From assembly GCF_910592395.1 (NCBI RefSeq), contig NC_088312.1, positions 2,666,001 through 2,730,000 of the forward strand: a stretch of DNA of 64,000 nucleotides, read 5' to 3'. This document shows positions 20,100 to 43,240 of this stretch, in pieces; within the stretch, counting starts at the first letter, position 1, and the number at the start of each line of letters is the position of its first letter. The notes beneath the pieces are model-generated. The model was given only the letters and a program-made list of their open reading frames with translations. It was not told the DNA's origin and ran no database searches. This stretch comes from Lineus longissimus (taxonomy: Eukaryota > Nemertea > Pilidiophora > Heteronemertea > Lineidae). The translations under genes and the position numbers were made by a program.

Positions 20100-20777
20100 C
20101 TAATGCCGAGCTAAGTGTTGTTTCATGCCACTCGGTGGGACAGACTCTCCACAATATGGACATTTATAGTCCCTTGGAGTGCTTTCAACCCTATGCTTCA
20201 TGACCTTATGCATCCTCAGGTTCGCACGGGTTTGAAAACCTTTGTGACACAGTTCACATAAAAATTCATTCACAGGTTCAGTGGCTACTTTTGCAGGGAT
20301 AGGAATCTCGGTTTCCTTCATAGCGACATGTATTTCACCAGTTCGGCTAGAGGCATGGCTAACTGCCCCTTCTAAACAAGCCTTTTTCTGGGGCAAAGAA
20401 GCCACCTCAGCTATTGTCCTTTTGCTTGAAGTTCCAACTTGAGCTGACACTGTTCCCAGCTTAGTCTCTCCCTGTGATTGTCCTGTCTTTTGTAGCTCGA
20501 TATCTGCAAGTTTTCCACAAGAGATACGCCAAGTGCTATTGCTTTCAGAATACCCACCACTGTGAAAGTGCTGAACACCTTGTATAAGGCCAGCAATTGA
20601 ATTTGTTGAAACCGTCTGCACTCCCGGCAGTAATCCGTATAGTGAAGTTGTCCTTGGAGGTAGCGGACAAGTTGTTGTTCTTGATGATTCCGGACCACTT
20701 CCTTGGGAACTCAGCATTCTAAAGCCGCCATAACTATGTTGTCTCTCCCGAGGAAAGAAACCACTTTCAGTCATGAA
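20100..20777 (-). CDS. Alternative 3' exon, two C2H2 fingers (tail 17, most distal)
   Basis: Runs from an acceptor (CTCTTTTCAG before 20777) in phase 0 to a stop, 225 residues. A long Ser/Thr/Gly/Gln-rich linker leads to two C-terminal fingers: [17 protein letters not shown] with an H-x4-H ending, then [16 protein letters not shown]. The canonical TGEKP linker is missing between them and replaced by a ten-residue spacer. AATAAA follows at 20001-20006. Confidence 0.85.
   Translation of the reverse strand, partial: FMTESGFFPRERQHSYGGFRMLSSQGSGPESSRTTTCPLPPRTTSLYGLLPGVQTVSTNSIAGLIQGVQHFHSGGYSESNSTWRISCGKLADIELQKTGQSQGETKLGTVSAQVGTSSKRTIAEVASLPQKKACLEGAVSHASSRTGEIHVAMKETEIPIPAKVATEPVNEFLCELCHKGFQTRANLRMHKVMKHRVESTPRDYKCPYCGESVPPSGMKQHLARH

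Positions 20778-43240: not shown

Follow-up and report, generated by a model that had tools for sequence, protein, structure and literature searches.

A predicted coiled-coil gene with proposed alternative zinc-finger terminal exons, and its paralogues, in the nemertean Lineus longissimus

We propose that LOC135488797 of Lineus longissimus is a hub gene, in which two shared 5′ exons are joined to one of approximately 18 downstream terminal exons, and that it is one of approximately 43 relatives recognised by exon 1 in this genome; we put the probability of this reading at roughly 0.87. A single transcription unit would give exon 1, encoding a predicted long coiled coil, and exon 2, encoding a disordered linker. 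At its phase-0 donor, exon 2 would then be joined to one of the terminal exons, 17 of which encode C2H2 zinc fingers. The output would be proteins with a common oligomerisation half and differing, mostly DNA-binding, ends. The family would comprise the exon-1 relatives, nearly all on one chromosome, and the same unusual donor is present in most of the ten arrays read. A first-pass annotation of this DNA had proposed a common predicted coiled-coil module with alternative phase-0 3′ exons, outside the arthropods and lacking a BTB domain, and this core is borne out by the RefSeq isoforms X2-X7 and by nine further loci.

Results

The shared half of LOC135488797

The window, by which we mean the whole stretch of 64,000 nucleotides that was analysed (C5:2666001-2730000), contains LOC135488797 on its minus strand (Table 1). 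RefSeq proteins of L. longissimus match the joined shared exons with 100% identity, and residues 1-411, encoded by exons 1 and 2, are identical in isoforms X3-X7, which then continue into five different tails of the window. Exon 1 ends at the donor CAG/gtaatt and exon 2 at CAG/GTAGGG, both in phase 0 as first described. The 36-nt exon that had been offered as an alternative link between exon 2 and the tails is open and in phase 0, but its acceptor scores 2.1 compared with 7.5 for exon 2, and it is missing from the six RefSeq proteins of the gene that were examined, in which exon 2 joins the next exon directly; the exon is unsupported.

Table 1. Exons and tails of LOC135488797 (window positions) and head-to-head hub-exon pairs (C5 positions). 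Protein cluster identifiers are given in brackets.
Feature	Position	Strand	Description
Shared exon 1	42514..43230	-	coding part, 239 aa; predicted long coiled coil; 100% in window-gene RefSeq isoforms
Shared exon 2	41780..42295	-	172 aa; disordered linker with FFPLS and further motifs (14 protein letters not shown)
Candidate 12-aa cassette exon (36 nt)	41257..41292	-	earlier proposal; unsupported
Tail 1	38947..39300	-	2 fingers, phase 0; no RefSeq isoform in protein searches
Tail 2	38243..38587	-	2 fingers, phase 0; no RefSeq isoform in protein searches
Tail 3	37362..37934	-	zinc fingers; RefSeq X7 (P0001), joined at 37934
Tail 4	36854..37171	-	2 fingers, phase 0; weak acceptor tract
Tail 5	36306..36683	-	3 fingers, phase 0
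Tail 6	34337..34708	-	2 fingers, phase 0
Internal exon (earlier 'tail 7')	33800..34153	-	encodes no finger; donor GTAAGT, joined to 31277 in RefSeq X2
Tail 8	31884..32279	-	2 fingers, phase 0
Tail 9	30579..31277	-	charged, non-zinc-finger; RefSeq X3 (P0005), joined at 31277; alternative donor after 30668
Last coding exon of RefSeq X2	30190..30212	-	EQDEEEV, stop
Tail 10	29475..29801	-	2 fingers, phase 0
Tail 11	28706..29137	-	2 fingers, phase 0
Tail 12	26908..27582	-	2 fingers; RefSeq X5 (P0002), joined at 27582; blind top-scoring site 27555, same frame
Tail 13	26225..26671	-	2 fingers, phase 0
Tail 14	24973..25551	-	3 fingers; RefSeq X6 (P0004), joined at 25551
Tail 15	24023..24403	-	3 fingers
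Tail 16	22642..23004	-	2 fingers, phase 0
Tail 17	22026..22367	-	3 fingers, phase 0
Tail 18	21167..21496	-	3 fingers, phase 0
Tail 19	20100..20777	-	zinc finger; RefSeq X4 (P0003), joined at 20777
Head-to-head pair	9217239/9219217	minus/plus	exon search
Head-to-head pair	22474128/22477458	opposite	exon search
Head-to-head pair	11345491/11349757	opposite	exon search
Head-to-head pair	6972591/6974640	opposite	exon search
Head-to-head pair	6735007/6737107	opposite	exon search
Head-to-head pair	11392019/11394672	opposite	exon search

The sequence of exon 1 has heptad periodicity, and its structure is predicted as helices in the monomer; it may dimerise as a coiled coil. The AlphaFold model of isoform X6 (mean pLDDT 64.7, pTM 0.32) contains helices at residues 37-94 and 101-241, mostly at pLDDT 86-97, followed by disorder from approximately 244 to 510 and then by three fingers. 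No BTB match was obtained in exons 1 and 2 at E ≤ 1 or in any of seven hub N-termini at E ≤ 0.01, and searches of the shared half for known domains (BTB, KRAB, SCAN and coiled-coil families) gave none above cut-off. The best weak Pfam match, HMMR_N, falls below its own cut-off and was rejected, and a PDB sequence search with a profile of the shared module reached E 0.09 at best. The 5′ side of LOC135488797 adjoins a divergent WD-repeat gene on the plus strand, which by our reading of the sequence starts near 43.8 kb and which we take to be NUP43 (the one exon searched gave WD40-type matches only, below cut-off), and this leaves little space for an upstream BTB exon.

The terminal exons of the window

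Nineteen tails had been listed for this gene. An in-frame AG was found for all 19 open reading frames, but the seventh proved to be an internal exon: in isoform X2 (P0060, a cluster of two sequences with junctions mapped on one member) exon 2 is followed by 34153-33800, then by 31277-30668 and by a short last exon at 30212. This leaves 18 terminal tails, all in phase 0 and on the strand of the shared exons, of which 17 encode zinc fingers and one, tail 9, does not. For each of the 17 zinc-finger open reading frames the best-scoring AG before the first finger is in phase 0, while the second-ranked AGs are divided 6/4/7 amongst phases 0/1/2. The pyrimidine tract that each tail was said to possess varies in strength, and tails 4 and 7, together with the RefSeq site 27582 of tail 12, fail a pyrimidine filter. 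On the plus strand of the window there is no zinc-finger open reading frame of at least 60 aa; two loose C2H2 patterns occur there in one frame of less than 60 aa, antisense to tail 3.

Pfam zf-C2H2 matches above cut-off were found in all three zinc-finger tails searched, and Foldseek matches the fingers modelled in P0004 to DNA-bound C2H2 structures, so that both the motif and the predicted fold are those of the C2H2 class; these ends would be expected to bind DNA. RefSeq isoform models are present for five of the 18 terminal tails, leaving 13 without a model, and these models are automatic predictions; we count both points against the hub reading. The limited reach of the models also favours the view that many tails are decayed or unused, with only about five functional, but an open frame and a phase-0 acceptor are retained in 18/18 tails and finger patterns in the 17 zinc-finger tails, and we consider large-scale decay improbable.

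Three repeats and a gene pair were also observed in the window. An element of approximately 0.9 kb with inverted ends lies between tails 5 and 6 (35175-36083; arms 35217-35355 and 35870-36008, 87% complementary); it consists of GGAAAATTCGTCCCC-type repeats 15-32 nt long and resembles a non-autonomous inverted-repeat element. A 128-nt tandem unit, in 5.0 copies with 98% matches, separates the internal exon from tail 8 (32902-33539), and a minisatellite with a 32-nt unit, 12.7 copies and a 161-nt higher-order period occupies 14632-15041. The minus strand of 12000-18000 apparently carries two tandem genes of the 3-hydroxyacyl-CoA dehydrogenase type (3HCDH_N matches at 13544-13936 and 17397-17756), which we presume may be lambda-crystallin-like.

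Paralogous hubs and their tail arrays

A genome search with exon 1 of the window gene returned 45 matches at E ≤ 0.001 (43 on C5 and one each on C11 and C12), one of which runs through a TGA. When the exon of a more central paralogue was used, 48 matches were obtained, 43 of them at E < 1e-8 with the query and the window gene included; 42 of these lie on C5 and one on C11, and none has an inner stop. At the protein level, 56 Lineus-named clusters including P0060, with 173 member sequences, carry the module (the cluster tables name one member per cluster), and 55 clusters fall into 19 groups by common N-terminus, 15 of which contain at least two proteins. In one protein, P0055, exon 2 is apparently skipped. 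On C5, hub exons stand head to head on opposite strands in six places, the two members of a pair being 1.4-3.6 kb apart, an arrangement that suggests shared promoters.

Outside the window we read approximately 265 kb of DNA (200 kb, 50 kb and 15 kb), in stretches picked mainly from dense zinc-finger places on C5 rather than as a random sample. Ten arrays were read, comprising the window and the nine further loci of the same build, and the module and phase-0 tails are common to all of them. The number of zinc-finger tails with a phase-0 YTNCAG acceptor per hub is 40, 18, 18, 17, 16 (window), 12, 10, 7, 4 and 2, the arrays of the second 18, the 7 and the 2 being cut by region ends. Extrapolation from the mean over hubs read whole suggests a genome total of several hundred tails, if the unread paralogues are likewise furnished with them. 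In every array read, a hub exon is found upstream on the strand of the tails; for two arrays it falls beyond the DNA that was read and was placed by the genome search with exon 1 of the window gene. With both strands counted, the nearest 5′ hub exon (within 60 kb) is on the same strand for 147 of the 149 zinc-finger open reading frames outside the window; the remaining two, both matches to a single finger, have poor acceptors.

Acceptor phase was analysed in 153 zinc-finger open reading frames (window minus strand, fetched regions plus strand). A YTNCAG site precedes the first finger in 147 of them, and the best site is in phase 0 in 140, in phase 1 in six and in phase 2 in one. Chance is untenable as an explanation for 140/147 phase-0 best acceptors in ten arrays, although the p-values computed for this count assume an independence that the related tails do not have. 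The odds of one in 3^19 given initially for the window were nevertheless too strong, since the tails share descent through local duplication: the nearest neighbour of a tail lies in the same hub in 98 of 144 cases, compared with 21 expected. Blind acceptor scoring agreed with the RefSeq junction at 10 of 11 mapped zinc-finger tails (3/4 in the window and 7/7 in two other arrays), the eleventh being 27 nt off in the same frame.

The local duplication of the tails bears on a different reading, namely that these are tandem arrays of independent zinc-finger genes, with a phase-0 intron inherited by duplication and shared exons serving only a few of them; common phase alone would then be no proof. 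RefSeq isoforms with shared exons for only 5/18 terminal tails are in keeping with such an array, as is one of four control zinc-finger loci away from hubs, L007, whose best AG is in phase 0 and which we count against the hub reading. The assertion that most tails have no usable start codon did not hold up, since an in-frame ATG precedes the first finger in 13 of the 17 zinc-finger tails; separate translation is compatible with the sequence alone, and this too we count against the hub reading. However, the hub exon lies upstream on the same strand in each array read (arrays taken from dense zinc-finger places), tail 9, which encodes no zinc finger, agrees in phase with the others, and the remaining three control loci (L002, L003 and L008) have their best acceptors in phases 1, 2 and 1, respectively. 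Moreover, for tail 15, which is without a RefSeq isoform, no separate Lineus protein was found among the 27 candidates of the searched length range, the search returning 23 other C2H2 proteins. Taken with these points, independent genes seem to us very improbable, slightly more so than decay.

Not all ends in the family are zinc fingers. P0030, an isoform of another hub, has a Tc5-transposase DNA-binding domain above cut-off and a CENP-B N-terminal match just under it, although the exon encoding this tail did not turn up in the DNA read. Since P0030 has a Tc5-type tail and the window gene a non-zinc-finger tail, the hub appears to take ends of different kinds. In the 15 kb read at C5:1790416, the paralogue nearest in sequence to the window hub, there is no zinc-finger tail; the phase-0 exon that comes next is helix-turn-helix-like by eye, with Pfam no better than E 0.15.

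Splice signals, 3′ ends and the mode of joining

Amongst 109 phase-0 top sites the acceptor reads TTnCAG, 97% having T at -6, 98% T at -5 and 99% C at -3; since pyrimidines and a C at -3 raise the score, this uniformity is partly built in. The usual donor consensus is GTAAGT. Of ten hubs scanned, six, among them the window hub, have the donor AG/GTAGGG at exon 2 and one has AG/GTAGGA; the scan gave no donor output for the other three, one of which shows ATG/GTAGGT by eye. The hub donor thus departs from the consensus and yet is conserved for the most part, which would suit a regulated donor. AATAAA or ATTAAA occurs within 250 nt of 25 of 109 tail stops, which is not enriched over the shuffled mean of 27.9, and we count the scarcity of canonical poly(A) signals against the hub reading. 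A poly(A) hexamer or donor after each stop was rejected as a general rule: GTAAGT, GTGAGT and ATTAAA are not enriched, and AATAAA is only slightly in excess beyond 100 nt (13 compared with 8.2 at 100-250 nt and 18 compared with 11.9 at 250-450 nt). Dscam-like pairing between intron and tails was also rejected, as in four hubs none of the intron's 8-mers or 10-mers had complements at a greater number of tails than the highest of 30 shuffles.

The abundance of tails poor in canonical poly(A) signals, together with the unusual shared donor, would also suit trans-splicing, in which the shared exons form one transcript and the tails arise from separate internal promoters. There is a precedent in mod(mdg4), for which the excerpted text of PMC12692577 describes over 30 isoforms, mRNAs made only in trans and alternative exons with promoters of their own. 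The tails of mod(mdg4), however, lie partly on the opposite strand, whereas here hub polarity is kept (147/149 outside the window and 17/17 inside it), as cis joining requires. Promoter space is also little in places, since 13 of 105 gaps from a stop to the next acceptor are shorter than 200 nt, the shortest being 37 nt (medians 374-568). We regard trans-splicing as unlikely, though the least so of the alternatives weighed here. Because the arrays follow hub polarity, we prefer a cis mechanism, in which a single pre-mRNA would be spliced to one or another of its terminal exons.

Age of the family and evolution of the tails

Nine metagenome proteins match particular Lineus paralogues with 55-81% identity, and such paralogue-specific matches point to another species in which the hubs were already separate; we infer that this species is a nemertean. 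Amongst approximately 5.8 billion proteins, of which only word-sharing candidates were scored (5,745 and 7,991), no relatives were found outside Lineus and the metagenome contigs, and there was no description of the hub family among the literature matches listed. The 153 open reading frames contain 383 fingers with 332 distinct contact quartets. An arms race at the finger contacts was considered and rejected, the entropy being 3.2-3.6 bits there compared with 2.0-3.6 at other free positions (148 fingers). Best-hit identities between tails are 66% at most; a recent burst of tails was accordingly dropped as an explanation, and the fact that frames are kept open at this divergence suggests long maintenance.

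Discussion

At about even odds, we suggest that a nemertean lineage invented a lola-like system and then multiplied it, giving approximately 43 hubs, essentially on one chromosome, with from a few to approximately 40 ends per array read, probably hundreds in all, and including at least one transposase-type helix-turn-helix end. To our knowledge, the design of one module with many DNA-binding ends is known mainly from arthropod BTB genes. If our reading is true, an unrelated coiled coil, another phylum and a large family would show that this design has evolved independently, and the hub family would provide a natural replicate in which to ask why such a design arises in animals. It would also allow a test of whether selecting one terminal exon from dozens calls for special machinery. 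Mixing of coiled coils between hubs, should it occur, could give a very large number of two-sided DNA-binding complexes.

Clustered expansion of C2H2 coding units is shared with KRAB-C2H2 genes and with the C2H2 clusters of cephalopods. KRAB-C2H2 genes comprise one gene per effector and finger array, whereas here one effector half serves an array of tails. The same difference separates the present family from the cephalopod clusters, for which the excerpted text of PMC12513265 describes duplicated genes and makes no mention of exons.

The closest likeness is to the BTB hubs lola, mod(mdg4), broad and ttk, with which LOC135488797 shares same-phase terminal exons that encode DNA-binding domains but not the N-terminal BTB/POZ domain. 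In Drosophila lola, according to the excerpted text of PMC11426971, shared 5′ exons are joined to alternative 3′ exons and 17 of 20 isoforms have different fingers, a proportion close to the 17 zinc-finger ends amongst 18 found here, and the shared half is a TTK-type BTB that is not found outside arthropods. In mod(mdg4), a comparably large set of tails (at least 30 isoforms) is likewise built on one common module, but the module is again a BTB, the tails are mostly FLYWCH and lie partly on the opposite strand, and joining is in trans (excerpts of PMC11426971 and PMC12692577), whereas in Lineus the tails are mostly C2H2 and follow the strand of the hub, opposite-strand tails being absent from the window and the other arrays agreeing with it but for the two single-finger matches. 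LOC135488797 thus resembles lola in function yet stands outside that class, as it has a predicted coiled coil in place of the BTB domain; it differs further in belonging to a nemertean and in having approximately 43 exon-1 relatives in its genome.
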